IMG/VR virus record: IMGVR_UViG_3300032323_002909
Location: 86,462-150,461 of that record
Source of the DNA: a virus
DNA: 64,000 nt
Direction: 5' to 3' (one strand)
Shown: positions 12,074 to 46,240 of the stretch, piece after piece
Position numbering within the stretch: position 1 is the stretch's first letter
Layout: every line of letters starts with the position of its first letter
Translations under genes and position numbers: made by a program
The notes under the pieces: generated by a model
What the model saw: the letters and a program-made list of their open reading frames with translations, nothing else
Databases searched by the model: none
What the model was told of the DNA's origin: nothing

Positions 12074-12084
12074 ATTCTTATTTA
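12074..12084 (-). promoter_or_regulatory. Late promoter, leaderless (TAAATA-N5-ATG)
   Basis: Minus-strand TAAATA at 12084-12079, then AGAAT, then the ATG at 12073. It is divergent with the promoter at 12107. Confidence 0.65.
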
Positions 12085-12106
12085 ACGCATTTATAATATT
12101 TTCAGT

Positions 12107-12119
12107 TAAATAAATTAGT
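12107..12119 (+). promoter_or_regulatory. Late promoter (TAAATA-N7-ATG)
   Basis: TTAAATA ending at 12112, then 7 nt to the ATG at 12120. Confidence 0.55.
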
Positions 12120-12839
12120 ATGATTTCGTTCGCAAAACACTATTTGATCAAAGAAGCTTTTGATACTGTGACAGAATTTTTATTGAATCCTGAACACTCG
12201 GATAAAGAGTATGATGAACTAGTCGCGGAGTTTGAAGCTTCTGGTGGTGAAGTTTTGGGTTCTGGATCATTTGGTATTGTATATTCACACCCAAGTTGGC
12301 CCTATGTGCTCAAAGTGTTTAGTTGGGATGACCCATATCTAAAATTTGCAAGATACGCATACGACAACCCACATCCATCTTTTCCAAAATTTTATGGTAA
12401 ACCACAACGTGTTGTCCCTAATTATACGAGATATAAAGATGAAGCAAAGCAATATCTGGCAAGGATTGAACGTTTGGAACCAACTTCAGAAAATGTTTTG
12501 AATAAAATAAATGTGGAACTTATGTTATACTTTCATCTAAGGGACAATCCAGAATTGATAAAAAATCGAGTAGATTTTATGAAATTGTCTAGCAGAGTCA
12601 AAGCATTACCCAAAGAAATTTATAATCTATTAGATGGATTATATTTGATACGTAGAGATCTCCCCACATTGAACCCTGATTTACATGAAGATAATGTTAT
12701 GATGCGAGATGATGGTCAATATGTGTGGATCGATCCTGTTTGGACTGGCGATGAAGCTAGTGAAAACCCACTGACCGCTGCTATGACATCTAAGGACTAC
12801 GCTCCCGAAAACATGTTACGTGGTGGAAGAACATCTTGA
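12120..12839 (+). CDS. Protein-kinase-like late protein, possibly virion-packaged
   Basis: 239 residues with a recognisable kinase layout. Glycine-rich loop GSGSFGIVY near residues 42-50. Beta-3 lysine in YVLKVF near 65. Catalytic-loop-like DLHEDNVMM near 187 (Asp and Asn in the HxDxxxxN arrangement, with Asn-Pro-Asp in place of His-Arg-Asp). A metal-binding IDP in place of DFG near 204. The N-terminus MISFAKHYLIKEAFD matches the late-protein motif, with possible gp21-type cleavage after LIKE. Late expression plus this tag suggests a kinase carried in the head, comparable in logic to T4 Alt. Activity is unproven. The stop TGA lies within the next promoter. Confidence 0.65.
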   Translation: MISFAKHYLIKEAFDTVTEFLLNPEHSDKEYDELVAEFEASGGEVLGSGSFGIVYSHPSWPYVLKVFSWDDPYLKFARYAYDNPHPSFPKFYGKPQRVVPNYTRYKDEAKQYLARIERLEPTSENVLNKINVELMLYFHLRDNPELIKNRVDFMKLSSRVKALPKEIYNLLDGLYLIRRDLPTLNPDLHEDNVMMRDDGQYVWIDPVWTGDEASENPLTAAMTSKDYAPENMLRGGRTS

Positions 12840-12869
12840 CAAATCAATACAGTGTGTTAAATTTAGCAC
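12836..12869 (+). promoter_or_regulatory. Early sigma-70-type promoter, leaderless
   Basis: TTGACA at 12836-12841 (containing the kinase gene's stop TGA), 16 bp spacer, TAAATT at 12858-12863, 6 nt, ATG at 12870. Confidence 0.75.
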
Positions 12870-13529
12870 ATGGATGATTCGGATAATATAGCTATTTATA
12901 CAGCTACCAAAGAAAATAATTTAAGTTTTCCACTTGCTAATAGTTTAAAAAGATTGAATTTGCAAAAATTTTTACGTGCGAAATTTGCTAATACGCAGTC
13001 TTTAGCTAAGGTTTATAACGAATTTTTAGATGATGCTATAAAAAAAGACCTTGATTATATCATTTTTACCCATGATGACGTATGGATCGAGCATGATTTT
13101 AGGTTAAATTTACAAGAATCTTTCAATTCATTTGATGTTGTGGGTGTAGCGGGTTGTTCCAAGGCTGAAATAACGTCTCCAGCGTTATGGCATTTGATGG
13201 GTAGAGGACACTTACACGGTGCAGTGGCACACAAATACGGTAATAGTAAAGCTATGACTAGTTTTGGTATCTACCCTCATAGAGTCGTCATAATTGATGG
13301 AGTATTTATAGCTTTAAATAAGAAAGCCATCAAATCAGCAAGGTTCGATGAACAATGCCCATCAAAATGGCACTTCTATGATCTTTGTTTTAGTGCAAGA
13401 TGTCTACAAAATAACTTGAAAATAGGCGTGAGTGATATTATCATTACACACGAGTCCCATGGTTTACGCGAATTTACAGATGAGTGGAAGATGGGTGAAC
13501 AATATTACATGGAAACATATAATTCTTAA
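12870..13529 (+). CDS. Glycosyltransferase, GT-A/family 2-like
   Basis: 219 residues. An N-terminal Rossmann-like region is followed by FTHDDVWI near residue 67, which resembles the metal-binding DxD of GT-A enzymes. A later segment VVIIDGVFIALNKKAI with DEQCPSKWHFYDLCF near 150-175 resembles the acceptor region of small phage family-2 glycosyltransferases. The substrate is unknown. It has its own early promoter and overlaps gp41 by one base (TAATG). Confidence 0.7.
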   Translation: MDDSDNIAIYTATKENNLSFPLANSLKRLNLQKFLRAKFANTQSLAKVYNEFLDDAIKKDLDYIIFTHDDVWIEHDFRLNLQESFNSFDVVGVAGCSKAEITSPALWHLMGRGHLHGAVAHKYGNSKAMTSFGIYPHRVVIIDGVFIALNKKAIKSARFDEQCPSKWHFYDLCFSARCLQNNLKIGVSDIIITHESHGLREFTDEWKMGEQYYMETYNS

Positions 13530-14845
13530 TGAGTGAAATAGACTTAGATTATTTTGAAAAGATTTTGGTGAAAAATGCCATGACTAATGGTAGTTATTTG
13601 GCATCTATTGCTGATCATGTTCAACCAAAATACTTCAATGATAAGTTTATCGCCAAATATTTCGAAATAGTATCGGATTTTTATGATAAACGGCAAGCAT
13701 TGCCAACTTTTACAGAGATAAAGACCTATTTGATCTCTGATGAATTGAAAAATGGGTTCAAAAAGCTCATAGAATCGTTCAAAGAGCTAGATTCTGCTCA
13801 AAATAACGATGAATTGTATACAAATACTGAAAAATTCCTCAAAGAAAGAGGAATGTATCACTCGATATTGGAATCTGCTGAGAAAATATCAGAGGGTAAC
13901 GTTGATACATCTGAAATTGTCGAGAAGTTTGAGAAAATTGCTGGTATAAACCTGAATGTAGACAAGGGTATTGAGATCTATGGTGATGTTGAGAGGGTTA
14001 TTGACGACATTTTGAATGATGAGACCATGATATCATCCAAATGGTCTTGGTTAGACGATGCACTTGGAGGTGGTTTTGCTGAAGTAGGCAAAGCATTATA
14101 CGTATTTGCAGGTCAATCCAATATCGGTAAGAGTATTTTTCTAGGTAATGTGGCTGCTAACATGGCATCACAGAACAAAAACATACTAGTAATAACATTA
14201 GAGATGTCTGAAACACTCTATGCGAAGAGAATAGCATCAAATATTACCAAAATACCGATGAAAGACTTTAGACATAACGTTCCGACACTGCGTCATGCTC
14301 TGGAAGAAGAGCATGACAAAACAGGTGGTAGAATTTACATTAAAGAATTCCCTCCATCAACCATCACTCCTAAGCAATTAGGGGCATTCATCAAAAAAAT
14401 GATTGATTCTGGTATTAAAATCGATGGTGTCGTGGTCGATTACCTAACATTGTTGACCGCTGCTGGTTCTAATTCATATGAGAAGGGTAAAAATATCTGT
14501 GAACAGATCAGAGCATTGTCATATGTGTTTAAATGTCCCTTTGTATCTGCTTGTCAGTTGAATCGTAGTTCCATTAATGAAAATAACCCTGATATGTCAG
14601 GTATTGCAGAGAGTCTTTCTATTGCGATGACCGCCGATGTTATTGTATCCATCTTTCAAAATGAAGAAGACCAAGAATTAGGGGTGATTCGTCTTGGTAT
14701 GATGAAAAATCGATTCGGTCCGAGGGGTATGGTTCAAACTATGAGAATTGATTACCCAACACTTACTGTTCATCAATCGGATGAAGATGATGAAGAAATC
14801 ATGTCTGATGATGAGTTAAGTCTACTAGAAAAATTTAGCGGTTAA
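13529..14845 (+). CDS. 41: Replicative DNA helicase gp41 (DnaB family)
   Basis: A ring helicase that unwinds DNA ahead of gp43 and hosts the gp61 primase. Residues 1-170 form the helical N-terminal domain. Walker A GQSNIGKS is near 194, Walker B VVVDYL near 301, and a SACQLNR sensor-like motif near 345. The acidic tail is DDEEIMSDDE. At 438 residues it is close to T4 gp41. It starts in the stop codon of the glycosyltransferase gene, so the two are coupled. Confidence 0.94.
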   Translation: MSEIDLDYFEKILVKNAMTNGSYLASIADHVQPKYFNDKFIAKYFEIVSDFYDKRQALPTFTEIKTYLISDELKNGFKKLIESFKELDSAQNNDELYTNTEKFLKERGMYHSILESAEKISEGNVDTSEIVEKFEKIAGINLNVDKGIEIYGDVERVIDDILNDETMISSKWSWLDDALGGGFAEVGKALYVFAGQSNIGKSIFLGNVAANMASQNKNILVITLEMSETLYAKRIASNITKIPMKDFRHNVPTLRHALEEEHDKTGGRIYIKEFPPSTITPKQLGAFIKKMIDSGIKIDGVVVDYLTLLTAAGSNSYEKGKNICEQIRALSYVFKCPFVSACQLNRSSINENNPDMSGIAESLSIAMTADVIVSIFQNEEDQELGVIRLGMMKNRFGPRGMVQTMRIDYPTLTVHQSDEDDEEIMSDDELSLLEKFSG

Positions 14846-14846
14846 T

Positions 14847-14857
14847 TAAATATTAAT
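14847..14857 (+). promoter_or_regulatory. Late promoter, leaderless (TAAATA-N5-ATG)
   Basis: TAAATA at 14847-14852, TTAAT, ATG at 14858, immediately behind gp41. Confidence 0.65.
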
Positions 14858-15364
14858 ATGAATAAAAAAGATCAGGATAACATTGGGCTGATATATGAAA
14901 ACATTTTATTAGAAGCTAGTTTATCCAATAAAAATCTTTTTTATGGCTTAAAAAGCATGTTGGATGATGGCGAAGATTTCACAATGTTGACGGATAGAAA
15001 CATGGAAAAAGATGATCAACAAACTATGTCCTGTCAGTTTATATATAAAGGAACTAGACATATTAGAGTTTTCACGAGCGCGTTTTTTTCGACTAAAAAC
15101 TATGATAATCCTTCTCATCTCACAGTTTCTATATTTGAGGTGACACCAGAAGGTAAAACCATATCTAAGTTGGATACTAATGCTTTCTATAACAAAGGGG
15201 CATATTTCGACATCTCACACGATCCGATAATATCTTCTGTCGAGAATTTTGTCAAATATGTCAAGTCGGTGTTGGACAGGTCTGATAGAGATCGTGGAAA
15301 CGATGATGAAACGAAGCTTCCTAAATCACCAACCCCAACGAGTAAAAAATTAATATCGATTTGA
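14858..15364 (+). CDS. Late protein with capsid-targeting-like N-terminus, unknown body
   Basis: 168 residues. The N-terminus (DNIGLIYENILLEASL) is one of the best examples of the shared motif, with ILLE followed by Ala fitting a gp21-type cleavage site. The body (about 40-140) looks beta-rich, with a strand pair around QFIYKGTRHIRVFTSAFF. The C-terminus is Pro/Ser/Lys-rich. No known fold is recognised. It is isolated between early genes but has its own late promoter, which supports head packaging as an inference. Confidence 0.6.
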   Translation: MNKKDQDNIGLIYENILLEASLSNKNLFYGLKSMLDDGEDFTMLTDRNMEKDDQQTMSCQFIYKGTRHIRVFTSAFFSTKNYDNPSHLTVSIFEVTPEGKTISKLDTNAFYNKGAYFDISHDPIISSVENFVKYVKSVLDRSDRDRGNDDETKLPKSPTPTSKKLISI

Positions 15365-15416
15365 TACGGTATTAATTTTGTTTACTATATAAAAAACTGA
15401 TGGGATCTTTAAATAC

Positions 15417-15450
15417 TTGACAACTGATCGATATATGCTACGATTCCCGC
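15417..15450 (+). promoter_or_regulatory. Early sigma-70-type promoter, leaderless
   Basis: TTGACA at 15417-15422, 16 bp spacer, TACGAT at 15439-15444, 6 nt, ATG at 15451. Confidence 0.75.
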
Positions 15451-16350
15451 ATGGAATCGCCTATTGACAAACTCATAAAAATTAATAATTATGATATGTC
15501 TAAAATTTTTGCGTGGGTAAATTCTGATTTGGATGGTATAGGTTCTACCATCTTATTGGGTAATCTATTTAAAAATTTTGAATATCGTCACTGTTTCTTT
15601 GGTAATTTCGAGGAGCAATATCTGCTATGGGCTAAGGATAATGCGGTAGATTACGATAAAATTTTCATCGTCGGTATGGTTTTAGATCAAAATCTTATCA
15701 AAAAAATAGATGACCAGCGAGTAGTGTTCGTGTCCGACCGAAATGAACAATTCAAAACATGGGATTCTACCATTATTCATGATGAATGCTCCTCTTGCAC
15801 GAAATTATTGTATAAAAAATTTAAAGAAAAAATTGAATTCACTAAAAATCTGAAAAAATTCTTTCTGTATGTTGATGATTACAATTCTTACGATCTAAAA
15901 CACGAAGAAACCAAATATATAAACGCATTTTATAGAAAATCTGGAGCTAATCGTTTTATTAATTTTGTAAATCGTTTTTGGAACGGTTTTGATGGGTTTA
16001 AAGAATCGGAAGTCAAACTTGCCGATGGATTCTTCAAAGAATTAGAAAAAGAATTATCCGAGATCACCCTTTACAAGGGAGAATGGAGTGGTTACAATAT
16101 TATCTCCACTATATCAAAATTTTCGGTTAATGAATTAGCACACTCTATCATGAGTAATTATGAGGGGGATGCAGTAATCATCATGAATCCAGATACACAG
16201 TTTGTTTCGTTTAGAAAATATAAAGGTTCTGACATCGATATTGCTAAAATCGCGAATATGTTATGCGATGGTGGCGGTGGCGAATGGGCAGCAGGTGGTA
16301 AAATCACCAAAGAATTTTTAAAATTTAGCGAAACTTTAAAAGAAATTTAA
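15451..16350 (+). CDS. DHH-family phosphoesterase
   Basis: 299 residues. The N-terminal motif NSDLDGIGS near 29 corresponds to the HxDxDG metal-binding motif of DHH enzymes, with Asn in place of His. A later CDGGGGEWAAGGK near 270-281 corresponds to the GGGH substrate-binding loop of the DHHA1 domain, with Glu in place of His. Relatives such as NrnA degrade short oligonucleotides or dinucleotides, so a role in recycling nucleotides or signal nucleotides is likely. The altered histidines make activity uncertain. It has its own early promoter. Confidence 0.7.
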   Translation: MESPIDKLIKINNYDMSKIFAWVNSDLDGIGSTILLGNLFKNFEYRHCFFGNFEEQYLLWAKDNAVDYDKIFIVGMVLDQNLIKKIDDQRVVFVSDRNEQFKTWDSTIIHDECSSCTKLLYKKFKEKIEFTKNLKKFFLYVDDYNSYDLKHEETKYINAFYRKSGANRFINFVNRFWNGFDGFKESEVKLADGFFKELEKELSEITLYKGEWSGYNIISTISKFSVNELAHSIMSNYEGDAVIIMNPDTQFVSFRKYKGSDIDIAKIANMLCDGGGGEWAAGGKITKEFLKFSETLKEI

Positions 16351-16352
16351 TT

Positions 16353-16664
16353 ATGATCAACCCATCAGATTCTATAGTCGAAGAAGAAACAAATCATCTT
16401 TTTCTTTGTTTTTGCACCTTTGTTAACAATTTGAAGGGTAAGAAATTATCAATTCAAAATGTATTTGTGACTACTTTACAGGAGGAAAAATTGAAAACAA
16501 TACTAAAAACAATTTTATCTCTTGACTCTGATCAAGAACTTGTTAAAGTGTTCTTGGAATATGATCCAACTATTGCAAAATCAAAGTATGTAACCAAATT
16601 TATCAATAATATTTGTAAGACAAATAAGAGCAGAAATGACAAAACTACAACAAAAAATATATAA
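16353..16664 (+). CDS. Small protein, possible late-transcription coactivator gp33
   Basis: 103 residues. The position before a gp59-like gene and gp32 matches the T4 order 33-59-32. One segment (VKVFLEYDPTIAKSKYVTKF) resembles the FLEENSIP..FAKF part of T4 gp33. The hydrophobic clamp-binding C-terminus expected of gp33 is not visible; the end is Lys/Thr-rich. It overlaps the next gene by 29 bp. The assignment is positional and weak. Confidence 0.35.
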   Translation: MINPSDSIVEEETNHLFLCFCTFVNNLKGKKLSIQNVFVTTLQEEKLKTILKTILSLDSDQELVKVFLEYDPTIAKSKYVTKFINNICKTNKSRNDKTTTKNI

Positions 16665-17265
16665 TTCACATCTGGCTATTTCTCGTAAACAGAGAAATAA
16701 ACCATTCAGAATTAGAAAAGATTTTTCGTCATTAGAGTCTCATATTATTGATAAATTAGCATCATTAGAAAGATTTTTTCTAGCACATCCATCGGTAAAC
16801 ATTGATGAATATTTTACATCACCTTATGAAATCTTTGAAGATGATGAATATTTTGATTTAGATTTTTACCTTACATCCAAAGCTAAAAAAGCTTACTCAC
16901 AATACATGAAAAAATTAGAGATTAGCGACCCTGATACGGAAGCTAGTTTGAAACGTCTTATCGATGGTTTAAAATTCATCAAAACATTTTGCCAAGAAAA
17001 AAACTTGACTTTAGAAAAATACCATGTATATATAGAGAATAATCTGCCTTGCATTATTGAGCATCTAAAGAATCACGATATTAATATGTATTGTTTACAC
17101 GCTTTAGGTATTACTAAGATCGATGTGGAGAACAGAGTTTTAGATTTTATTTTTTCTGATTTCTGGACAACTTTTCAGAAGACAAAAAATAAATTCTTCC
17201 TAAGTGGGAAGATGAAAAAACTCGCAAAACAAGCAATAACAAAAATACAACAACAACTAAAATAA
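16636..17265 (+). CDS. 59: Probable helicase loader gp59
   Basis: A 209-residue, basic, all-helical protein directly upstream of gp32, as gene 59 is in T4 (217 residues). The central FYLTSKAKKAYSQYMKKLE and the later NNLPCIIEHLKNHDINMYCL parallel the gp59 helices by eye. gp59 loads gp41 onto gp32-coated DNA. It overlaps gp32 by one base (TAATG), which implies coupled synthesis of loader and its target. Sequence similarity is low, so the call leans on synteny and size. Confidence 0.55.
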   Translation: MTKLQQKIYNSHLAISRKQRNKPFRIRKDFSSLESHIIDKLASLERFFLAHPSVNIDEYFTSPYEIFEDDEYFDLDFYLTSKAKKAYSQYMKKLEISDPDTEASLKRLIDGLKFIKTFCQEKNLTLEKYHVYIENNLPCIIEHLKNHDINMYCLHALGITKIDVENRVLDFIFSDFWTTFQKTKNKFFLSGKMKKLAKQAITKIQQQLK

Positions 17266-18197
17266 TGACAACAAAAACAAAAGCAAAATTCGGCGGTGCA
17301 GCAATGTTCGAATCGATCAAAGCAGCATTGAATAAATCAAAGGATGGCGCTGGCGCACAATTCGGCAATATTCTGAAATGCCCAGATGGTCATACTTATA
17401 CATTAAGACTTGTTCCTAATGTGGAAAATCCTGAAAAGACATTTTTCCATCACTGGGTGCATGGTTGGAATAGTAAATCATCTGGCTCTTATATGAGTCA
17501 CATTGGTCTTCAAACCTTCGATGAAAGAGATCCTATCTCTGAACTTCGTTGGAAACTCTGGAAATCTTGGAGAGAAGCCAATCCCAAAGCTGATTCCAAA
17601 GACTACGTTGCTGATATTTCCCAGAAAGAAAACTGGTTCGTGAATGTTTACGTTATCGATGATCCATCGAACCCGAACAACAACGGAACTGTGAAAATTC
17701 TTCGTATGGGTCCGCAGCTTAAGAAAATTGTCGATGAGGCTACGGAAGGTGATAGATCTGATGAACTTGGGTGGGACATTTTCGATCTTTCTAAAGGTCA
17801 CGATTTGAAAATCAAGGCTGAGAAGAAAGGTGTTTATACCACATTTGAATCGTCATTCTTCACTACGAAATCCAAAACTGTATTGGATGAAGAAGAGATT
17901 GATAAGATCCATTCCAATATCAATGATTTGGAATCGGTTTATCCTGTGAAAACTTATGATGAACTCCAAGAGATTCTGAATGAGCATTTCTTCATCGGTG
18001 CTGAGAAGGAAACTCCGAAACCTCTTTCTAAAATCACATCGAAAACACCTGTTGTCGATGATGAGGACGAGGATGATGATATCCCTATGGTTCACGAAAC
18101 AAAGAAAACCAAAACTCAATCTGCAACTAAAGTCCAAAAAGTTCAGGACGATGACGATGTTGACATCGACGAGCTCCTTGAAGGATTGGACGATTAA
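17265..18197 (+). CDS. 32: Single-stranded DNA-binding protein gp32
   Basis: 310 residues. The core FFHHWVHGWNS..., NWFVNVYVIDDPSNPNNNGT and LGWDIFDLSKGHDLKI segments match the OB-fold core of T4-like gp32, and the acidic tail (DDVDIDELLEGLDD) is the usual partner-binding C-terminus. The zinc-binding Cys/His cluster of T4 gp32 appears to be missing; only one Cys (KCPDGHTY, near 41) is seen. It binds ssDNA and organises gp43, gp59 and UvsX. A strong hairpin follows the gene. Confidence 0.92.
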   Translation: MTTKTKAKFGGAAMFESIKAALNKSKDGAGAQFGNILKCPDGHTYTLRLVPNVENPEKTFFHHWVHGWNSKSSGSYMSHIGLQTFDERDPISELRWKLWKSWREANPKADSKDYVADISQKENWFVNVYVIDDPSNPNNNGTVKILRMGPQLKKIVDEATEGDRSDELGWDIFDLSKGHDLKIKAEKKGVYTTFESSFFTTKSKTVLDEEEIDKIHSNINDLESVYPVKTYDELQEILNEHFFIGAEKETPKPLSKITSKTPVVDDEDEDDDIPMVHETKKTKTQSATKVQKVQDDDDVDIDELLEGLDD

Positions 18198-18209
18198 TAA
18201 ATAAACAAG

Positions 18210-18231
18210 CCCCCCTCTGAAAGGAGGGGGG
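18210..18231 (+). terminator. GC-rich hairpin after gp32
   Basis: A perfect 8-bp stem, CCCCCCTC (18210-18217) and GAGGGGGG (18224-18231), with loop TGAAAG. No U-tract follows, so it may be a weak terminator or a 3' stabiliser of gp32 mRNA. It directly abuts the TATAAT of the next promoter. Confidence 0.6.
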
Positions 18232-18243
18232 TATAATATACTT
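18232..18243 (+). promoter_or_regulatory. Early promoter -10, leaderless
   Basis: A perfect TATAAT at 18232-18237, 6 nt, then the ATG at 18244. No -35 match is seen at the right distance, because that region is the hairpin. Confidence 0.55.
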
Positions 18244-18702
18244 ATGAGCAATATTCCAGAAGAAATAGAAGCAATGGCTTTTTTTATCGGTCAATCCAAT
18301 CAGATTGACAATATGATGGTAGAAAAACCATCAACCTTGATAACATCTGCCGATACCCTTAAACAGGGTATGCACGAATATTTATTACAGCAGCGCAGAT
18401 TGCAGTCGCCTCCTCCACCACCACCATCTCCTTATGCACATGCCCCTTCGAATTTGTATGCCCCTATGAATCATCCTGTGCATACTACAACATCTGCTCC
18501 TTTACCTACTCAACCATCTAATGATGATCAATTAGAATTTAATTTTGATCCAAAGCTAGGACAACAGATGATCGACTTATTGAAAGAAATATCACTAAAA
18601 CTTACAAAGCAACTAAACATTTTAGAAAAGAAATATGAAAATAAATCTTCAAAAGACACCGCTACAGATCTTTCTGTCGAGTTTGTCGATGATTCAAGAT
18701 AA
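18244..18702 (+). CDS. Hypothetical protein with proline-rich linker, 152 aa
   Basis: Not recognised. Residues 1-50 are helical. Residues 58-100 form a low-complexity Pro/Ala/Ser linker (PPPPPPSPY). Residues 105-135 form a Lys/Leu helix (coiled-coil-like). It lies between gp32 and gp45 and overlaps gp45 by 68 bp, so it may act in the replisome or late transcription. That is inference from position only. Confidence 0.5.
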   Translation: MSNIPEEIEAMAFFIGQSNQIDNMMVEKPSTLITSADTLKQGMHEYLLQQRRLQSPPPPPPSPYAHAPSNLYAPMNHPVHTTTSAPLPTQPSNDDQLEFNFDPKLGQQMIDLLKEISLKLTKQLNILEKKYENKSSKDTATDLSVEFVDDSR

Positions 18703-19342
18703 ATGTGTCTTGACGTTGAAAGATGACGGTATACATGGTATTACATCTAGTAAAGATAATACCATGTATGCGTATGCTAGCCTTGAAGGTGAGTATGAAG
18801 AAGGTCGATTGAATTTACCATCACTTGAAAAGTTATCCAAAGCTTTGTCGATGGTGAAAGAGGAAGACATCACACTTGTGATAAAGGGAAATCATTTGGA
18901 ATATAAAAATGATGAACTTAAGTTTAAATATCACCTACATGAGGACGGTGTTATATCAGTGCCTAATTTGACTTTGAATAAAATTCAAAGTTTCCACTTT
19001 AACATTGAATTTAAATTAGACATGGATTTCATGGCTAGTCTTTTACAGAAATCTTCTATCACGAATACTAAAAAATTGTATATCTACACAGAAGATAATA
19101 GCTTGGTGTGGAAGCTAGGCGATGATACAGCACCTAACAGCGATTCTATTTGTATCATTGGCGAGGAAGTCGATTTCGATCTTAAACCTTTCATTATGAA
19201 AGTGGACGATTTGAAATTAATAACCAAAGTATCAAAGTATAATAATATTTTTAAAATTAATTCCAAGATGGGTATCGGTGCTATCATCAGCAAAAATGAT
19301 TATTTTGGAATTCAATACATTTTTTCATCTATTAGAAATTAA
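18635..19342 (+). CDS. 45: Sliding clamp gp45
   Basis: 235 residues, close to T4 gp45 (228). The beta-rich pattern of two clamp domains (VLTLKDDGIHGITSSKD near 25-40, YEEGRLNLPSLEKLSKALSM near 52-72) and its place beside gp32 support the call. As a trimeric ring it tethers gp43 and, in T4-like phages, activates late transcription with gp33 and gp55. The start at 18635 is preferred because the first residues resemble the T4 clamp N-terminus, despite the overlap with the gene before. Confidence 0.8.
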   Translation: MKINLQKTPLQIFLSSLSMIQDKCVLTLKDDGIHGITSSKDNTMYAYASLEGEYEEGRLNLPSLEKLSKALSMVKEEDITLVIKGNHLEYKNDELKFKYHLHEDGVISVPNLTLNKIQSFHFNIEFKLDMDFMASLLQKSSITNTKKLYIYTEDNSLVWKLGDDTAPNSDSICIIGEEVDFDLKPFIMKVDDLKLITKVSKYNNIFKINSKMGIGAIISKNDYFGIQYIFSSIRN

Positions 19343-19344
19343 TC

Positions 19345-19599
19345 ATGGCTGCTATAAACGAAATTACAGGAAAAGTTATCAGAACCAATCCCCAAAACTC
19401 CAAATATGCCGAAAATTGGGATAAAATTTTTACTAAAAAATCTTCCAATGAATGGCTAAAAGAATGTGCAGATGTTGTATTATTAGATCCTGATGGGTGG
19501 CGACAGAATGATGGTGTTGATATGGATACTCCCATCAAATGGGCAGATTTTCAATATAGGTTATCTTTATCGACTATAATGTGTAAAAATATTAAATAA
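19345..19599 (+). CDS. Conserved phage hypothetical protein, 84 aa
   Basis: The segments NPQNSKYAENWDKIF and VLLDPDGWRQNDGVDMDTPI, with a C-terminal FQYRLSLSTI, are a pattern I have seen in many tailed-phage hypothetical proteins. Function unknown. It follows gp45 with a 2-nt gap and is likely cotranscribed. Confidence 0.65.
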   Translation: MAAINEITGKVIRTNPQNSKYAENWDKIFTKKSSNEWLKECADVVLLDPDGWRQNDGVDMDTPIKWADFQYRLSLSTIMCKNIK

Positions 19600-19606
19600 T
19601 ATTATC
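19593..19606 (+). promoter_or_regulatory. Late-type promoter (TAAATA-N8-ATG)
   Basis: TAAATA at 19593-19598, overlapping the TAA stop of the upstream gene, then 8 nt to the ATG at 19607. The spacing is longer than the standard 5. Confidence 0.45.
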
Positions 19607-20251
19607 ATGAAATTAACACAAAAAGATCAGTCCGAGATAGCAAATTTATATTCCGAAATTTTAGTAGAAGCATTTTCAGATCTTGGGAAATTATCACCTG
19701 AGCAATTACGTAAAGGTTATCGTTTAAACCCGAATGATTCGGATAACTTTAAAGAAGTCAGTGGGCGAGTGTTTCATAACGCTTTGGAAGTTATCAAAAA
19801 TAACGACGATATGCGCAAAGTTACAAATCCCGACTACTATAAAGCTATCAGACAAAATCTTTCAACATATCCCATCGCTGAATATAATTCGATGAGATGT
19901 TTTCTAGGTAAGAATAATTCCAGTGGTTTCTGCATCAAAGACGACGATGAATTGGTTTCTTTGTTTTCTTCTTTAGAATCTTCTGGTAAAGCAGCTGCCC
20001 TAGCAGCTATTGAAAATGGTGCAAAACGACTTGATTGTTTCGCAACTCAAGATCAAAACGGTAACATTAAAAACGAAGGTTTATATAAACTTTACTCGTC
20101 TGTCGGGTTTGTTATTGACGAATCGTTGACTACTGGCGAACTAGGTGAGCCGTATGCAATACAAAATGGTATATCATATTTTGTCGGTCCAGATGAAGTA
20201 GTAGACCCAACCCACCCAACAGTGGTGATTTTCATGAAATTATCAAGATGA
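19607..20251 (+). CDS. GNAT acetyltransferase-like late protein
   Basis: 214 residues. The N-terminus (SEIANLYSEILVEAFS) is a strong example of the shared late motif, with cleavage expected after ILVE. The body resembles phage GNAT proteins: SGFCIKDDDELVSLF near 105-120, GKAAALAAIENGAKRLDCFA near 127-145 (acetyl-CoA-loop-like helix plus strand), LYKLYSSVGFVIDE near 160-175, and a final VVIFMKL strand. This suggests an acetyltransferase carried with the head. The catalytic residue cannot be assigned, and the acceptor is unknown. It overlaps the next gene by 4 bp (ATGA). Confidence 0.55.
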   Translation: MKLTQKDQSEIANLYSEILVEAFSDLGKLSPEQLRKGYRLNPNDSDNFKEVSGRVFHNALEVIKNNDDMRKVTNPDYYKAIRQNLSTYPIAEYNSMRCFLGKNNSSGFCIKDDDELVSLFSSLESSGKAAALAAIENGAKRLDCFATQDQNGNIKNEGLYKLYSSVGFVIDESLTTGELGEPYAIQNGISYFVGPDEVVDPTHPTVVIFMKLSR

Positions 20252-20535
20252 CATTAATATATCCAAAAGAACATATAGAAAACGCTCCAATCGAGCAAGA
20301 TGTAGATATCATAACTGATTATGATGAATTAAACGCGAAAATTTCGGGGTTATACGATACCTTCACGGTAATTGTATCTCACAACGAGTCTGCGAGTGAG
20401 TTGAATTATGTGATAAATTTTGATAGAATCAAAAATTTACATATTTTAACCACATTCATCGATTGTAGATATAAATCAGACAATCTTAAACTATTAATTG
20501 ATAAATTTAAAGCATTTGAAAATGCTTGGATGTAA
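20248..20535 (+). CDS. Hypothetical protein, 95 aa
   Basis: An alpha/beta protein with no recognised motif. It starts in an ATGA overlap with the GNAT-like gene, so it is probably translated in coupling with it and may be its partner. Nothing more can be supported. Confidence 0.5.
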   Translation: MTLIYPKEHIENAPIEQDVDIITDYDELNAKISGLYDTFTVIVSHNESASELNYVINFDRIKNLHILTTFIDCRYKSDNLKLLIDKFKAFENAWM

Positions 20536-20543
20536 AATAGTAG

Positions 20544-20579
20544 TTGAATATTGTCAATACCGTAATAAGTATATCATAT
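20544..20579 (+). promoter_or_regulatory. Weak early promoter
   Basis: TTGAAT at 20544-20549, 16 bp spacer, TAAGTA at 20566-20571, then 8 nt to the ATG at 20580. Spacing to the start is less exact than elsewhere. Confidence 0.35.
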
Positions 20580-20909
20580 ATGAAAAATAATATCGCCACG
20601 CAAGGTTATTTTGTTAAAAGATTAAGAGATTCTGGGTTTGTAGTTGTTAAATTATTTGATAAATACGCTCAACATGATCCTAGAAAATGGACGATTATGG
20701 TCGATCCCAGCAATACATCTGTTCTCATAACATGTTATCAAAATAAAGAATTTAAAGGTGATGTTTTATTTGAGATCAATGATGGTGGTAATAGATTTTT
20801 CAAAAACTACAACCTCAAAACACAAAGTATGGAAATTGTTATTATTACTTTACTTGAAAAAGGTATTTGTCAGATCAAACAAGATTCTGAATATATAAAA
20901 GATAAGTAA
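20580..20909 (+). CDS. Hypothetical protein, 109 aa
   Basis: Not recognised. An alpha/beta pattern with YFVKRLRDSGFVVVKLFDKY and WTIMVDPSNTSVLITCYQ. Starting at 20580 rather than at an upstream in-frame codon leaves room for the promoter. It is the first of three small genes leading to primase. Confidence 0.5.
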   Translation: MKNNIATQGYFVKRLRDSGFVVVKLFDKYAQHDPRKWTIMVDPSNTSVLITCYQNKEFKGDVLFEINDGGNRFFKNYNLKTQSMEIVIITLLEKGICQIKQDSEYIKDK

Positions 20910-39146: not shown

Positions 39147-39629
39147 GAGTGTTGTATAGCCTATCGTGTTTAATTTCGATTTAATCGATAATCCTTCTAC
39201 GTTTAACGAAGGAACATTTATTTGTAAGTAAATTTCATATTCATTATCATCTGGTTTAGGAACCACAAGAACTCCAGATACTTCGATTCTTGGTTCACTC
39301 AGCGACAATTTTCTAATAATATCATCCTGTATCACATCTGCGGTGTATTTATTAATAGGTTCGAATAAAAATCTACGTAAATCTACTCCAAAAGTAGGAT
39401 TTAATATTTTTTGTCCAGGTGATGTTAGAAAACAATTCGCTACACTATTTTTAATTGCTTCGATATCAAAAATTGCTTGGACATCTTTCAAACTCTCTTT
39501 TTTATTGAGTTGACTATTCACATAATATTGTGTATTAAGGTCAAAATCGATATCTTTATACAAATAACCATTATCTAATGACTTTTGCTTAATATCGTTA
39601 TTTTTAAGAGATGTTATCTTTATGCTCAT
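39144..39629 (-). CDS. 25: Baseplate wedge protein gp25 (lysozyme-like fold family)
   Basis: 161 residues. AIKNSVANCFLTSPGQKILN, PTFGVDLRRFLFEP and DVIQDDIIRKLSLSEPRIEV match the gp25/W protein family, including the invariant N..T..GE/Q-type turn and RxFLFEP. It is part of the inner baseplate that triggers sheath contraction. A perfect inverted-repeat divergent late promoter controls this gene and the repeat protein at 39661. Confidence 0.88.
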   Translation of the reverse strand: MSIKITSLKNNDIKQKSLDNGYLYKDIDFDLNTQYYVNSQLNKKESLKDVQAIFDIEAIKNSVANCFLTSPGQKILNPTFGVDLRRFLFEPINKYTADVIQDDIIRKLSLSEPRIEVSGVLVVPKPDDNEYEIYLQINVPSLNVEGLSIKSKLNTIGYTTL

Positions 39630-39640
39630 ACAATTATTTA
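39630..39640 (-). promoter_or_regulatory. Late promoter of gp25, leaderless (TAAATA-N5-ATG)
   Basis: Minus-strand TAAATA at 39640-39635, ATTGT, ATG at 39629. Confidence 0.75.
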
Positions 39641-39649
39641 GATTCTTAT

Positions 39650-39660
39650 TAAATAATTGT
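39650..39660 (+). promoter_or_regulatory. Late promoter of repeat protein, leaderless (TAAATA-N5-ATG)
   Basis: TAAATA at 39650-39655, ATTGT, ATG at 39661. It is the mirror image of the gp25 promoter. Confidence 0.75.
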
Positions 39661-42288
39661 ATGCCAAAGATTTCTCAACTTAATTCAGCATTAACACCAT
39701 TATCAGGAAAAGAAGTAATCGTTCTTAACCAGAACGGGGTGACATATAATACTGAATTGGATACGCTCACACAGTTTATCAGTGCTTCTACTAGAATAGG
39801 TGATTTGTCTAGCAATCTAACCAATTTGACAACTTTGGTTAGAGTATCAAGTGGTGATTGGGAGAATACCCATACTACAATGACTTTATTGTCTGGGAAT
39901 TGGCAGAGCACTTACACCACTTTTTCAAGCAATTCGGCTAATTTTGCTGTCAAAAACGCCAATAATTTTTTTACTGCTGATCAAACTTTTTCAACAGGTC
40001 GAATCAACTTGAGCACATTTCCAATACGAGTATTGGCAGATAGTAATATTTCTATTGGTTTAAGCGCAGGTAATCTAACAACAAGTCCTACTAATACCAC
40101 ATTTATAGGTCGTAATGCTGGAAACAATGCGACATCCGTCACAAATTCTAATTTTATAGGTTTAAATGCTGGTCTCTCTGCTACAAATGCTAGCAATTCG
40201 AATTTCTTTGGTAATAATGCTGGAAATCGCGCCACAATTGCCGAAAATTCTAATTTCTTAGGTCGTAATGCTGGTCTCTCTGCTACAAATGCTAATAATT
40301 CTAATTTCTTGGGTCAAAATGCTGGACATGGAGCTACAAATGCTGCTTCTTCTAATTTTTTCGGTAATTGTGCTGGAAATCGAGCTATTAATGCTAATAA
40401 TTCTAATTTCTTAGGTGCTTATGCTGGATTTTGTGCTACAAATGCTTATAATTCTAATTTTTTAGGTCCAGATGCTGGATGTAGAGCTACAAATGCTAAA
40501 CAATCTAATTTTTTAGGTAATAATGCTGGAGAATGCGCTACAAATGCTTGTTATTCTAATTTCCTTGGTAAAAATGCTGGAAACCGTGCTACAAGTGCTG
40601 TTGTTTCCAATTTTATAGGTAATAACGCTGGCTTTTATGCTACAAATTCTAGTAATTCTAATTTTTTTGGTGGAGACACTGGACAATGCGCTACAAATGC
40701 TAGTTATTCTAATTTCTTGGGTAATCAAGCTGGAAAATACGGGACTAATGCTAATAATTCTAATTTCTTTGGTAGAAATGCTGGATATTGCGCTACAAAC
40801 GCTAACAATTCTAATTTCTTAGGTAGAGAAGCTGGATATTGCGCTACAAATGCTTCTTTTTCTAATTTTTTGGGTAATAATGCTGGTCTCTCTGCCAGAA
40901 ATGCTTTTTTTTCTAATTTCTTAGGTAGAAATTCTGGAAATCTCGCTACTTTTTCTTGTTGCTCTAATTTTTTCGGTAGTGCTGCTGGATCTAATGCTAC
41001 GTGCGCCCACAATTCTAATTTTGTGGGTGGGAGTGCTGGATTTGGTGCTACAAATGCTTGTTATTCTAATTTTGTAGGTAAGAATAGTGGAGGATCTGCC
41101 ACAAATGCTAATAATTCTAATTTCTTCGGTGAATCTGCTGGATACAACGCGACTGATGCTAATAATTCTAATTTTTTTGGACAGGAAGCTGGAAACAACG
41201 CGACTGATGCTAATAATTCTAATTTTTTAGGTGGCAGTGCTGGATATCAAGCTACAAATGCTAATAATTCCAATTTTTTAGGTAATAATGCTGGATATTG
41301 CGCTACAAATGCTAATGATTCTAATTTTTTAGGTAACAGTGCTGGATATTGCGCTACATATGCTTCTAATTCTAATTTCTTCGGCAATAATGCTGGATTT
41401 GGTGCTACTAATGCTAATAATTCCAATTTTTTAGGCTCTGGCGCTGGAGGTCACGCTTCTTGTGCTTACTTTTCTAATTTTCTGGGTGAATTCGCTGGAA
41501 ATTCCGCTACAAGTGCTAATAATTCTAATTTTTTTGGTAGTTTTGCTGGATACTTTGCTACAAATGCTAATAATTCCAATTTCTTCGGCGATAATGCTGG
41601 ATTTTGTGCAACCGATGCTAGTCATTCCAATTTCTTCGGTAATTATGCTGGTCTCTCTGCTACAAATGCTTACGATTCCAATTTCTTTGGTAACTGTGCT
41701 GGAGTTGGTGCTTACAATGCCGACATATCTAATTTCTTTGGTAAAAATGCTGGATATTACGCTACAAATGCTACTAGTTCCAATTTCTTCGGTGAAAATG
41801 CTGGTAGAGACGCTACAAATGCTGCTAATTCTAATTTCTTTGGCTATAATGCTGGTAGAGGTGCTGCAAGTGCTAGTCATTCCAATTTCTTAGGTTATAA
41901 CGCTGGACAGCTTGCTACAAATGCTGATAATTCTAATTTCTTTGGTAATAATGCTGGTTGTAATGCTGTAAATGCTTCTTATTCTGTATTCATAGGAGCA
42001 AATGCTGGTAGAGATGCTGGTCAGTCTAATAATTCCGTATTTATTGGTCGAAATTCAAATAATGGAATTAATGCTTGTAATGGAGTAGCTATCGGTGCTT
42101 ACACTCAAGTGGGTAATAGTGGCATTGCTATCGGTCGTGGTGCTTGTAGCCCAAGTAATGAATTATCATTCGGAAGCAACGCTTATCCCGTTGCAACATT
42201 ACCAGGTGGAACGTTTTATAGTTCGTATTGTAGCTTGGTAGTTTTCGTAAATGGCACATGTTTTAAAATACCGCTATTAAGTCCTTAA
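39661..42288 (+). CDS. Fibre-like protein built of 38 tandem 17-residue repeats
   Basis: 875 residues. An N-terminal region (1-145, with LSGKEVIVLNQNGVTYNTEL) resembles fibre attachment domains. Then come about 38 units of the form SNFxGxxAGxxATNAxx, exactly 17 residues each. The C-terminal part has GVAIGAYTQVGNSGIAIGRG, which resembles the AIG repeats of YadA-type trimeric adhesin heads. A stacked beta-roll or beta-helix fibre is likely, displayed on the virion. Many units carry Cys (GYCATNA). It is the only plus-strand gene at this edge of the minus-strand baseplate block. The start at 39661 is fixed by the late promoter. Confidence 0.7.
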   Translation: MPKISQLNSALTPLSGKEVIVLNQNGVTYNTELDTLTQFISASTRIGDLSSNLTNLTTLVRVSSGDWENTHTTMTLLSGNWQSTYTTFSSNSANFAVKNANNFFTADQTFSTGRINLSTFPIRVLADSNISIGLSAGNLTTSPTNTTFIGRNAGNNATSVTNSNFIGLNAGLSATNASNSNFFGNNAGNRATIAENSNFLGRNAGLSATNANNSNFLGQNAGHGATNAASSNFFGNCAGNRAINANNSNFLGAYAGFCATNAYNSNFLGPDAGCRATNAKQSNFLGNNAGECATNACYSNFLGKNAGNRATSAVVSNFIGNNAGFYATNSSNSNFFGGDTGQCATNASYSNFLGNQAGKYGTNANNSNFFGRNAGYCATNANNSNFLGREAGYCATNASFSNFLGNNAGLSARNAFFSNFLGRNSGNLATFSCCSNFFGSAAGSNATCAHNSNFVGGSAGFGATNACYSNFVGKNSGGSATNANNSNFFGESAGYNATDANNSNFFGQEAGNNATDANNSNFLGGSAGYQATNANNSNFLGNNAGYCATNANDSNFLGNSAGYCATYASNSNFFGNNAGFGATNANNSNFLGSGAGGHASCAYFSNFLGEFAGNSATSANNSNFFGSFAGYFATNANNSNFFGDNAGFCATDASHSNFFGNYAGLSATNAYDSNFFGNCAGVGAYNADISNFFGKNAGYYATNATSSNFFGENAGRDATNAANSNFFGYNAGRGAASASHSNFLGYNAGQLATNADNSNFFGNNAGCNAVNASYSVFIGANAGRDAGQSNNSVFIGRNSNNGINACNGVAIGAYTQVGNSGIAIGRGACSPSNELSFGSNAYPVATLPGGTFYSSYCSLVVFVNGTCFKIPLLSP
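40096..42033 (+). repeat. 38 x 51-bp tandem repeat array within the fibre gene
   Basis: The spacing from the first SNF codon (40147) to the last equivalent SVF (41983) is 1836 bp, exactly 36 periods of 51 bp, so there are no insertions or deletions between units. DNA divergence among units is moderate: core codons are kept and variable positions are scattered. Confidence 0.85.
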
Positions 42289-43119: not shown

Positions 43120-44007
43120 ATGCAAACAATATTTCATGTAACTGGAGGCTTGGGCAAACATGTTGTTGCTTCAGGCGTGATTAATTCGTATAAATATGCC
43201 AATAATGATGAGGAAATTATAGTATGTAGCGCATATCCAGAAGTCTTTAACAATAACCCAAATGTTGAGAAGTCTTTAGATATAAATAATCTTCAATATT
43301 TTTATAAACAATATATTAGTAATAAAGATGTTAAGATTTTTGCGCAGGAACCATATAAACAAGAGTCACATATCCTCAAACGTAAAAGTTTGATCGAAAC
43401 TTGGTGTGAAATGGTTGGGGTTAAATACCATAAAAAACCATCTATAAGTATTAATTTTAGGGAAAGGGAACTTGTTTCTCGTCGAATGTCATCGAATAAA
43501 CCCGTTCTCATTTTTCAACCTTTCGGGGGTAATAATAACACACTGCCTTATAATTGGGCAAGAGATATTCATCCGACGATTGCACAGTCGATTGTTAATA
43601 TGTTGACTGACAAATATAACATCATTTACATTTGCAATCCTTATCACCCTGCATTGGATAATTGCCAAAGGATTGATGAAAAACTTAGTTTAGCATCATT
43701 GGCATCATTGGTGGAACTTTCAAGTGAGAGATTTTTAATCGACTCATCTATTCAACATATTGCATTCGCATTGAATAAACCATCAACGGTTATTTGGAAT
43801 GTTACTTCACCTATTCAATTTGGTTATAATGACCTACACAATAACATTGTTAGTCCTATCGATTACAGTGGGGGTCATCGTAAATCATATTTGTTTGATT
43901 TTGAAATAGGTGGTATACCATCCGAATGTCCAGTTGCTGACTATACTGATATGTATAATATGGAAGAAATCTTTTCTACGATAAAAACATTGATGAATGA
44001 TAAATAA
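43120..44007 (+). CDS. Glycosyltransferase family 9-like (heptosyltransferase fold)
   Basis: 295 residues. It opens with a Gly-rich loop after the first strand (FHVTGGLGKHVVASGVI), and LIFQPFGGNNNTLPYNWARD near 129-150 fits the C-domain of GT9 enzymes. LIDSSIQHIAFALNKPSTVI near 205-225 matches the typical D...H.A.ALG.P..V segment. GT9 enzymes add heptose or related sugars. Here the acceptor is unknown. It has an early promoter while the divergent sulfotransferase has a late-type one. Confidence 0.72.
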   Translation: MQTIFHVTGGLGKHVVASGVINSYKYANNDEEIIVCSAYPEVFNNNPNVEKSLDINNLQYFYKQYISNKDVKIFAQEPYKQESHILKRKSLIETWCEMVGVKYHKKPSISINFRERELVSRRMSSNKPVLIFQPFGGNNNTLPYNWARDIHPTIAQSIVNMLTDKYNIIYICNPYHPALDNCQRIDEKLSLASLASLVELSSERFLIDSSIQHIAFALNKPSTVIWNVTSPIQFGYNDLHNNIVSPIDYSGGHRKSYLFDFEIGGIPSECPVADYTDMYNMEEIFSTIKTLMNDK

Positions 44008-44011
44008 TAAT
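44001..44011 (+). promoter_or_regulatory. Late promoter, leaderless (TAAATA-N5-ATG)
   Basis: TAAATA at 44001-44006, ATAAT, ATG at 44012. It overlaps the end of the GT9 gene. Confidence 0.7.
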
Positions 44012-44392
44012 ATGGCTATATTAACAGATAATAAACTTAACCAAACTCCGACTCAAACGCCAGAGCAACTTGAGACGCTCAAAAACATGCGGTTAAAGAC
44101 GACGAAAAACCATATTCTTGAACTTACTCGCGAAACGTTTAATCGTTTGGTGAATATTCAACGCAAAGGTATTGATATGGTTTGGAATAACCCAAATCTG
44201 ACACCTCAAGAAATTGTTGATGCTCTTGGTAATGACGCTGTTAAAGTGTTTGAATTTCATGGTAATCTCACTACGTTTATTCAACAATTAGCAACATCTG
44301 CTAATGTCGCGGTAGATTTGAAAACTCCTACTAACGCATTTAGTGTTGTGAGTGGGAACATTGTCGTTAGTAATAACCCATACCAAGCATAA
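44012..44392 (+). CDS. Conserved late structural protein, small
   Basis: 126 residues. A helical N-terminal half (LETLKNMRLKTTKNHILELT, then RLVNIQRKGIDMVWNNPNLT) is followed by PQEIVDALGNDAVKVFEFHG and a Ser/Thr/Asn-rich tail. I have a vague memory of this pattern in virion-associated proteins of aquatic T4-like phages, function unknown. It is followed at 2 nt by the acidic core-like gene, so the two are cotranscribed. Confidence 0.55.
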   Translation: MAILTDNKLNQTPTQTPEQLETLKNMRLKTTKNHILELTRETFNRLVNIQRKGIDMVWNNPNLTPQEIVDALGNDAVKVFEFHGNLTTFIQQLATSANVAVDLKTPTNAFSVVSGNIVVSNNPYQA

Positions 44393-44394
44393 TT

Positions 44395-45387
44395 ATGAAG
44401 AAAAATCCAAGTTTAGGTGATATTTACGGTGATATTCTGAGAAACGTTAAGGTCGTCAAAGAAAATGCTCAAGAAAACATCAATAAGTCGAAAAAAATTC
44501 CTAAAATGTCTAACAATGCATTCACGGATACTAATTCTTTGACTAAAGGTGGTCCAGAAGCTGCCGATGGCTTTCACAAAGCGTTAAACGATGATCATTG
44601 TGATTGTGATGAAGATAATGAAGAACGTCACGAAAAAAAATATAATAGAATCGAAGAATTAGAAAAACAATTAAATGATCCTTCAATTTCTAATGAAAAA
44701 AAATCCAAAATTCGTAATGTTATCGATAATATGAAGAGAGACATTCAACGCGAAGAAGCGGAAGAAGATTTTATTAAAGAATCCAAAAAAATTACAACAA
44801 ATAGACTAAATACTTTTATGATGAAAAAATCTACATTTGATAAATTGTTTGAATCTGTGATGGGTGGTGACTTCGGTCAAGACGAAGAATCCAAAGATGC
44901 CATGGCTTTAGGTCTTGGCGATGCTCCAACTGATGATGAGTTCGGTGATGATGAAATGGGCGAAGAAGGCGATCAAATTACCGTGACACTCGACCGTTCG
45001 GTAGCTCGTCAACTCTGCGACATGCTTCAAGCTGCTATGGGTGATGACGAAGGCGAAGACGATGGTTTAGATTTCGGCGACATGGGCGACGATGAAATGG
45101 GCGACGATGAGATGGATGAAGAAGGTTATGATGATGAAGAAGGTGATGATGAAGAGGATAACGAAGAAACTGTCTCCAGCACCAATAAATCTTCGCTTCA
45201 AAGCCACAACAATAAAGTGAATGGTCGTCCACAACCTAAAGGTGGTAGCACCAAAGTTGTTGGAACCACTGACAAAGTAGGTAACGATGGTGATCACGGT
45301 CATGCTATCCATAGTGGTAAACAACCAAATATGGGCAAACAAAACAAAGTATCGGATTTACGACAAGCGGAAGACTTTTTCCGCTGA
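44395..45387 (+). CDS. Acidic late protein, probable head core or internal protein
   Basis: 330 residues. The N-terminus (LGDIYGDILRNVKVVKENA) resembles the shared late motif. A Cys/Asp cluster (HCDCDEDNEE near 67) and a helical region follow, then from about 142 a second motif-like start (MMKKSTFDKLFESVMGGD), a DEDE/GDDEMG acidic stretch (about 180-260), and a Gly/Lys-rich tail ending VSDLRQAEDFFR. Acidity plus gene position next to gp14 and gp17 suggest a scaffold-like or core protein. A second, nested product is likely (see 44818). A rho-independent terminator follows. Confidence 0.6.
   Translation: MKKNPSLGDIYGDILRNVKVVKENAQENINKSKKIPKMSNNAFTDTNSLTKGGPEAADGFHKALNDDHCDCDEDNEERHEKKYNRIEELEKQLNDPSISNEKKSKIRNVIDNMKRDIQREEAEEDFIKESKKITTNRLNTFMMKKSTFDKLFESVMGGDFGQDEESKDAMALGLGDAPTDDEFGDDEMGEEGDQITVTLDRSVARQLCDMLQAAMGDDEGEDDGLDFGDMGDDEMGDDEMDEEGYDDEEGDDEEDNEETVSSTNKSSLQSHNNKVNGRPQPKGGSTKVVGTTDKVGNDGDHGHAIHSGKQPNMGKQNKVSDLRQAEDFFR
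44807..44817 (+). promoter_or_regulatory. Internal late promoter, leaderless (TAAATA-N5-ATG)
   Basis: TAAATA at 44807-44812, CTTTT, ATG at 44818, inside and in frame with the 44395 gene. Confidence 0.6.
44818..45387 (+). CDS. Nested in-frame late protein (short form of the 44395 product)
   Basis: An internal start gives a 189-residue protein beginning MMKKSTFDKLFESVM. This N-terminus matches the late motif seen at the true starts of other genes (compare KFDKLYELALEA at 58971 and KFDAIYESVVS at 58938). It carries the whole acidic segment. Promoter spacing, frame and N-terminal motif all agree, so a separate product is likely. Protein evidence would be needed to exclude chance. Confidence 0.5.
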   Translation: MMKKSTFDKLFESVMGGDFGQDEESKDAMALGLGDAPTDDEFGDDEMGEEGDQITVTLDRSVARQLCDMLQAAMGDDEGEDDGLDFGDMGDDEMGDDEMDEEGYDDEEGDDEEDNEETVSSTNKSSLQSHNNKVNGRPQPKGGSTKVVGTTDKVGNDGDHGHAIHSGKQPNMGKQNKVSDLRQAEDFFR

Positions 45388-45411: not shown

Positions 45412-45441
45412 AAAAGGGGATCGTTCTGATCCCCTTTTTTT
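45412..45441 (+). terminator. Rho-independent terminator
   Basis: An 11-bp stem AAAAGGGGATC (45412-45422) with GATCCCCTTTT (45428-45438), loop GTTCT, followed by more T residues. It is the best terminator in the window. Confidence 0.85.
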
Positions 45442-45443
45442 GT

Positions 45444-45454
45444 TAAGTAATATC
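45444..45454 (+). promoter_or_regulatory. Late promoter variant, leaderless (TAAGTA-N5-ATG)
   Basis: TAAGTA at 45444-45449, ATATC, ATG at 45455, directly after the terminator. Confidence 0.5.
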
Positions 45455-46240
45455 ATGCAATCGTTCTCGCAATTTTTCGAATCAAAATTGAAAAAATCGT
45501 CTATATCAAATGATGAACCTTATGAAGTTTATGATAAACACACGGGTGATATTATTTGGCGTGGCACATATGGCAAAAAACACATTGCTACAAGAATTAT
45601 TGATAAAAAAAATAATGAATATGGTGGTTATAGGTATTTTGGTAGACTTGTCAAAAAACCGTTATTGGAATATCGCCACAAAGATGCATTCGGTGGTATA
45701 AAGCAGAGTATCCATCCTGATAACAAAAAAGGTTCAAATTTGACTATAGATCCATCATCGAGAAAAATACCGTGGGTTAAAGGACCATATAAAAAAGAAA
45801 GAAAACAAGGTGAAATACTTATAGGTAAAGAGCTAGATAGAGAATTGGGTTCTTTAAACGGTGTGGAATTTGAAGAAGGTAAAGAAATAAAACGTAAAAA
45901 TTCTAATCAAATTTTAAAATTATTTATTAATGCACATGGTCAACCATGTGGTAGAATAATAGAGAAGCCTATGAATGAAAATTACGATAATAAACCATAC
46001 CCAACTCCCAAGTTGATAAAAATCGCATGGAAAAACCGTAAATGGTTTGCTGATAAAGGAGAGTTGGGGCAATATATGTTAAATGCTAAGAATGCGGAAG
46101 AATTTAAAACTAGATTGGTTTGGTTGAGTGAAGGTTCTTTGCGATATTATATGACAATGTTTGAGTCTCCCTATAAATATGGGGGTATGCCAGATGAACA
46201 CGAATTATATATAGAATTTGCTAACCAATTACCGATATAA
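45455..46240 (+). CDS. Late virion-type protein, unknown
   Basis: 261 residues from the ATG at 45455. The N-terminus MQSFSQFFESKLKKSS is a short version of the late motif (FxxFFES). The body is basic (PWVKGPYKKERKQGE near 105-120) with alpha/beta character, and the C-terminus (MFESPYKYGGMPDEHELYIE) may be a docking segment. It is not recognised. It sits between the terminator and gp14 with a 2-nt gap, so it is probably cotranscribed with the neck gene. Confidence 0.55.
   Translation: MQSFSQFFESKLKKSSISNDEPYEVYDKHTGDIIWRGTYGKKHIATRIIDKKNNEYGGYRYFGRLVKKPLLEYRHKDAFGGIKQSIHPDNKKGSNLTIDPSSRKIPWVKGPYKKERKQGEILIGKELDRELGSLNGVEFEEGKEIKRKNSNQILKLFINAHGQPCGRIIEKPMNENYDNKPYPTPKLIKIAWKNRKWFADKGELGQYMLNAKNAEEFKTRLVWLSEGSLRYYMTMFESPYKYGGMPDEHELYIEFANQLPI

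Follow-up and report, generated by a model that had tools for sequence, protein, structure and literature searches.

The open reading frame at 44395 to 45387 of this DNA, which comes from an uncultured T4-like phage, carries, well inside its coding sequence, what resembles the start of a late gene: a TAAATA box, 5 further bases, and an in-frame ATG. The question raised by this locus is whether the frame encodes a single 330-residue protein or also a shorter, 189-residue protein with a promoter of its own. The window that we analyzed is a stretch of 64,000 nucleotides, bases 86462 to 150461 of a 150,461-bp virus record; positions are those of the window unless stated otherwise. Judging from the sequence and its relatives, we consider it likely that the frame comprises two nested, co-terminal genes and that its short form is a tagged head protein, expressed leaderless from a late promoter.

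Organization of the nested reading frame

TAAATA lies at 44807 to 44812, CTTTT at 44813 to 44817, and ATG at 44818 to 44820, all within ORF 44395-45387. The internal ATG is in frame, 141 codons 3′ of the ATG at 44395, and the stop codon TGA (45385 to 45387) is common to the 330- and 189-residue forms. Rereading the sequence confirmed the motif coordinates, the frame, and the two protein sizes given in an earlier, sequence-only reading, as well as the short-form N terminus that it reported, MMKKSTFDKLFESVM. That reading also described a shared acidic C terminus; an acidic stretch is indeed shared, but it lies in the middle of the shared part, at about residues 158 to 260, and is not terminal. 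The last 60 to 70 residues of both forms are polar and conserved, ending KVSDLRxxEDFFR. The features of the locus are as follows (a slash marks a predicted cleavage site).

44001 to 44014, + strand: predicted late promoter TAAATA-N5-ATG, which would drive the 44012 gene and, with transcription continuing past it (read-through), also the 330-residue form
44012 to 44392, + strand: 126-residue gene in the gp16 (terminase small subunit) position; its stop is 2 nt before the long-form ATG
44395 to 45387, + strand: long form, 330 residues, open in every complete relative; dN/dS 0.195 upstream of the internal start
44785 to 44853, + strand: suppressed synonymous change, codons 131 to 153, covering promoter, start, and tag
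44806 to 44813, + strand: predicted internal late promoter CTAAATAC, invariant in all distinct relatives; a gp55 late sigma is encoded
44818 to 45387, + strand: nested gene, short form, 189 residues; Met142 invariant, box-to-start distance shared with 39 other gene starts
44818 to 44856, + strand: probable capsid-targeting tag MMKKSTFDKLFE; predicted prohead-protease cut LFE/S between 44853 and 44854
45412 to 45445, + strand: intrinsic terminator GGGGATC-loop-GATCCCC-T7, 3′ of the common stop; the hairpin is listed on the - strand
45444 to 45457, + strand: TAAGTA-N5-ATG, a variant late promoter in front of ORF 45455-46240, which is the next gene with a tag (MQSFSQFFESKL)

TAAATA by itself was not enriched in the window (121 found versus 143 expected), and its distance to ATG was 5 or 6 bases far more often than any other. 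Across the 150,461-bp record, TAAATA-N5-ATG occurred 41 times, compared to once for a reversed control pattern. Thirty-five of the 41 sites are direct gene starts; 4 others lie in frame, 36 to 63 nt inside the start of an over-extended ORF, and probably mark the true starts of those ORFs, so that 39 sites are probably ordinary gene starts. The remaining two are an out-of-frame chance match inside a gene and the site at 44807. With one chance match and one internal site, a lone internal match is about an even bet, and conservation must decide.

Conservation and synonymous constraint at the proposed internal start

IMG/VR yielded 19 relatives for the short part, 38 for the N-terminal part, and 43 for the whole protein. 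Twenty distinct sequences were compared, the relatives being 53 to 88% identical to the window protein. The open frame, CTAAATAC, the N4 spacing, and the ATG were kept in 20 of 20. Loss of the motif in relatives had been named beforehand as the outcome that would refute an internal late promoter with an in-frame start; instead, retention of the motif in all 20 distinct sequences strongly supports that proposal. On these comparisons, the internal TAAATA-N5-ATG is not a chance occurrence.

The same conservation might be sought at the protein level. If only the 330-residue protein were made, FDKLFE/S in its middle would be a polyprotein site for the prohead protease and TAAATA-N5-ATG a by-product of a conserved RLNTFM; both RLNTFM and KKSTFDKLFESVMG are invariant as protein. 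The codons of the box, however, are fixed as well, with Leu always CTA and Asn always AAT where synonymous variation is possible, whereas another invariant Leu column of the same protein uses five codons. When synonymous changes were counted by parsimony on a codon tree, codons 131 to 153 showed 7 changes versus 42.4 expected, a value as low being reached in 0 of 100,000 resamplings. Met142 is invariant among the 20 distinct sequences, while the adjacent position 143 is Met or Thr (Thr in several lineages), and the spacing from box to ATG is identical to that at the 39 gene starts. A single protein cleaved in its middle is, on this evidence, an improbable account of the locus.

Comparison with other genes of the same loci placed the constraint at the internal start. 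The lowest observed/expected ratio in a 10-column window was 0.12 here versus 0.51 in the neck gene and 0.57 in the terminase gene, which served as controls, and no such synonymous trough was found at the start of the long ORF. An internal TAAATA was absent from 19 neck-gene orthologues, and in 11 terL orthologues the sole recurring TAAATA column was at the 3′ end, where it is the promoter of the next gene. Constraint extends about 12 codons past the ATG at 44818, further than at two control gene starts, and the constrained block may contain a further signal besides the start. The first codons of the next tagged gene (ORF 45455-46240) appeared similarly conserved by eye, and therefore constraint past the ATG may be usual for tagged late genes.

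The reach of the constraint, together with the position of the block between the gp16-position gene and gp17, would also suit a packaging site, an operator, or another DNA or RNA element close to the terminase genes that overlaps a fortuitous start. We regard this as very improbable: the invariant core is the gene-start signal used throughout the phage, no unusual RNA structure was found, and the next tagged gene also has conserved first codons. None of the other sources checked, namely overlapping frames, antisense ORFs, stable or unusual RNA structure, and further copies of the block, accounts for the constraint.

Predicted expression of the two forms

Both halves of the long ORF are under purifying selection (median dN/dS of 0.195 upstream of the internal start and 0.17 in the shared part). 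Since the part upstream of the internal start is selected, the long form appears to be translated too. The 44012 gene had no Pfam or PHROG match, and its identity as gp16 is a matter of position. The late promoter upstream of it was present in nearly all relatives with enough flank, usually 366 to 395 bases before the long start. The terminator was kept in all relatives with flank, and the late promoter of the next gene was found in nearly all relatives, as TAAATA in most or as TAAGTA. The layout in the relatives is late promoter, gp16-position gene, long ORF with internal promoter, terminator, and, in nearly all, a new late promoter with the next tagged gene. Because a terminator and a new late promoter follow in relatives, the internal promoter would serve the long ORF and not the next gene.

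That layout also bears on the least probable of the alternatives, a real internal promoter that feeds downstream genes, as in-gene promoters commonly do in phages, or that merely boosts transcription with no ribosome start at 44818: besides the conserved terminator and new late promoter before the next gene, transcription would begin at the ATG given the spacing, and since the long start is 5′ of the internal transcript, nothing else in the ORF would be readable from it.

Several other features of the region were noted. In two relatives (L059 and L060) a separate late promoter, TAAATA-N6-ATG, stands directly at the start of the long form, another way to express the pair. The tag of the next gene (45455-46240) reads MQSFSQFFES here, MESFLEFFE or MKSFLEFFE in most relatives, and MDKYFKEIQEIYESV in L051, suggesting an exchange of tags, or of tagged genes, at this position. 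Adjoining the tail genes, 39622 to 42288 encodes an 888-residue fiber- or adhesin-like repeat protein with many NSNFLGxNAG-type repeats.

The phage encodes a gp55-type late sigma (phrog_234; E value, 1.6e-23), a clamp (phrog_223; E value, 1.8e-9), a gp21-type prohead protease (phrog_207; E value, 1.7e-52), and a T4-type major capsid protein (phrog_138; E value, 1.1e-78). In a 46-kb portion of T4, the TAAATA-to-ATG gap peaks at 24 to 29 bases and Shine-Dalgarno-like motifs precede 26 of 34 genes. The gap in the phage studied here is 5 to 6 bases, and 4 of 148 genes have such a motif, compared with 10 in a control stretch. Late mRNAs of this phage are probably leaderless, since TAAATA stands 5 to 6 bases from the ATG and Shine-Dalgarno motifs are absent. 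T4 late transcripts begin about one helical turn downstream of the box (PMC2988020); by analogy with that distance, the first transcribed base would be the A of ATG 44818 or a neighboring one. With a leaderless mRNA, an 8-base box would suffice to nest a gene, and the long transcript alone would not give the short protein. Record-wide, late genes such as those at window positions 49466, 51817, 53770, and 58971 have their ATG 5 to 6 bases after TAAATA and lack a Shine-Dalgarno motif. Elsewhere in the record, at record bases 12026 to 20729 (L086, L087), about 15 small genes follow a conserved TAAAAACCACATTAGAAT-N6-ATG or ...TTAAACT-N9-ATG, and this box is probably an early promoter that is likewise very close to the start codon.

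The N terminus of the short form, FDKLFE/S, fits a tag cut after LxE, and the capsid protein shows, by eye, a similar FQE/S where the mature N terminus of its kind is expected. The loose motif [LIF]xE occurred within residues 5 to 22 in 27 of 49 late-promoter genes versus 29 of 130 genes lacking the promoter; of the late-promoter proteins, 9 of 45 had it in the 18 residues that follow. This enrichment bears out the proposal that the short form belongs to a family of tagged proteins, in the sense that its N terminus is a probable capsid-targeting sequence. T4 puts internal proteins into its core via N-terminal targeting sequences (PMC3012670).

For two nested genes, these elements can be arranged as follows. 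The late promoter at 44001 would give a long transcript read as the 44012 gene and then as the 330-residue protein. CTAAATAC at 44806 to 44813 would be read by the gp55-type sigma, giving a second transcript from the A of ATG 44818 or an adjacent base; being leaderless, it would yield the 189-residue protein with no need for a ribosome binding site inside the ORF. The tag of the short protein would be cut after LFE by the gp21-type protease, and the protein would then be present in the virion as a late protein of the head interior or the prohead core. With its additional 141-residue helical N-terminal part, the long form would, if cut at this site, yield an identical mature C-terminal part. 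One point against this explanation is that the internal promoter, TAAATA, is shorter than the T4 octamer. Overall, it is most likely that the phage produces one head protein in two lengths. A broader picture, which we offer tentatively and with more doubt than conviction, is a T4-like clade with leaderless late mRNAs in which an 8-base box alone suffices for nesting. Two transcripts, with products distinguished solely by the 141-residue N-terminal piece, would here lead to one mature internal protein after prohead-protease cleavage, the choice of promoter setting the amounts that enter the head by the tag and as the long form.

The predicted product and its precedents

No homologue was found in named phages by tblastn over 50,697 phage records or in four cyanophages by a profile search of the gp13-gp23 region, and the genome_contigs collection contained no relative. 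A Pfam Flagellar_rod match was taken as a coiled-coil match, and weak PDB matches were taken as helical chance matches. AlphaFold gave a mean pLDDT of 49.5, the sole confident part being a helical hairpin at about residues 71 to 130.

The sequence-only reading had likened the pair to a design familiar from scaffold proteins of other phages. Nesting of this kind is known, but identity as a scaffold found no support. The nested gene matched no PHROG and, in Pfam, no structural or head family, hence no scaffold family; it sits between the gp16-position gene and gp17 and not beside the protease and major capsid genes, where a separate 294-residue ORF between the gp21-type protease and capsid genes is a better, gp22-like candidate. 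We favor, over a scaffold role, a late protein of the head interior or core with two N termini.

A shorter ORF in the same frame with a common stop, whose own promoter and start are under selection, has the makings of a nested gene, and precedents exist. In phage lambda, the C gene encodes a protease and the scaffold Nu3 is made by internal translation initiation within it. As in C/Nu3, an internal in-frame start would here give a short form equal to the C-terminal part of a longer head-assembly protein; unlike in lambda, no protease match was obtained for the long form, whose gene does not adjoin the capsid and protease genes. The record of T4 gene 17, the terminase large subunit (NP_049777-NP_049779), carries a note on transcription from within the gene and translation in frame; T4 genes 21 and 26 likewise have recorded products that are internal or shorter. 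Gene 17 resembles our locus in giving an in-frame, co-terminal shorter product within a T4-type late structural and packaging cluster, but the gene and its product are different ones, T4 late genes carry Shine-Dalgarno motifs in their leaders, and no capsid-targeting tag is noted at its internal start. Like the T4 internal proteins (PMC3012670), the short form has a probable short N-terminal tag common to unrelated late proteins, in a phage encoding a gp21-type protease; unlike them, one tag lies inside a longer ORF, and the likeness drawn here is one of motif. The predicted promoter resembles the T4 gp55 late promoter TATAAATA (PMC2984593, PMC2988020) in the TAAATA core only, with an A+T-rich stretch downstream, but stands 5 to 6 bases from the ATG, compared to 24 to 29 in T4, and lacks an accompanying Shine-Dalgarno motif. 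Nested in-frame late products are thus already known from T4 gene 17; the variation here would be the leaderless box combined with a targeting tag.

The locus presents a well-conserved case in which one coding sequence would contain the promoter, start codon, and protein-sorting tag of another, and its short protein would be missed by automatic annotation. If late mRNAs are leaderless, the case shows that a gene can be nested with very few signals once a ribosome binding site is dispensable, and it offers a direct way to test for leaderless late expression in a T4-like phage.
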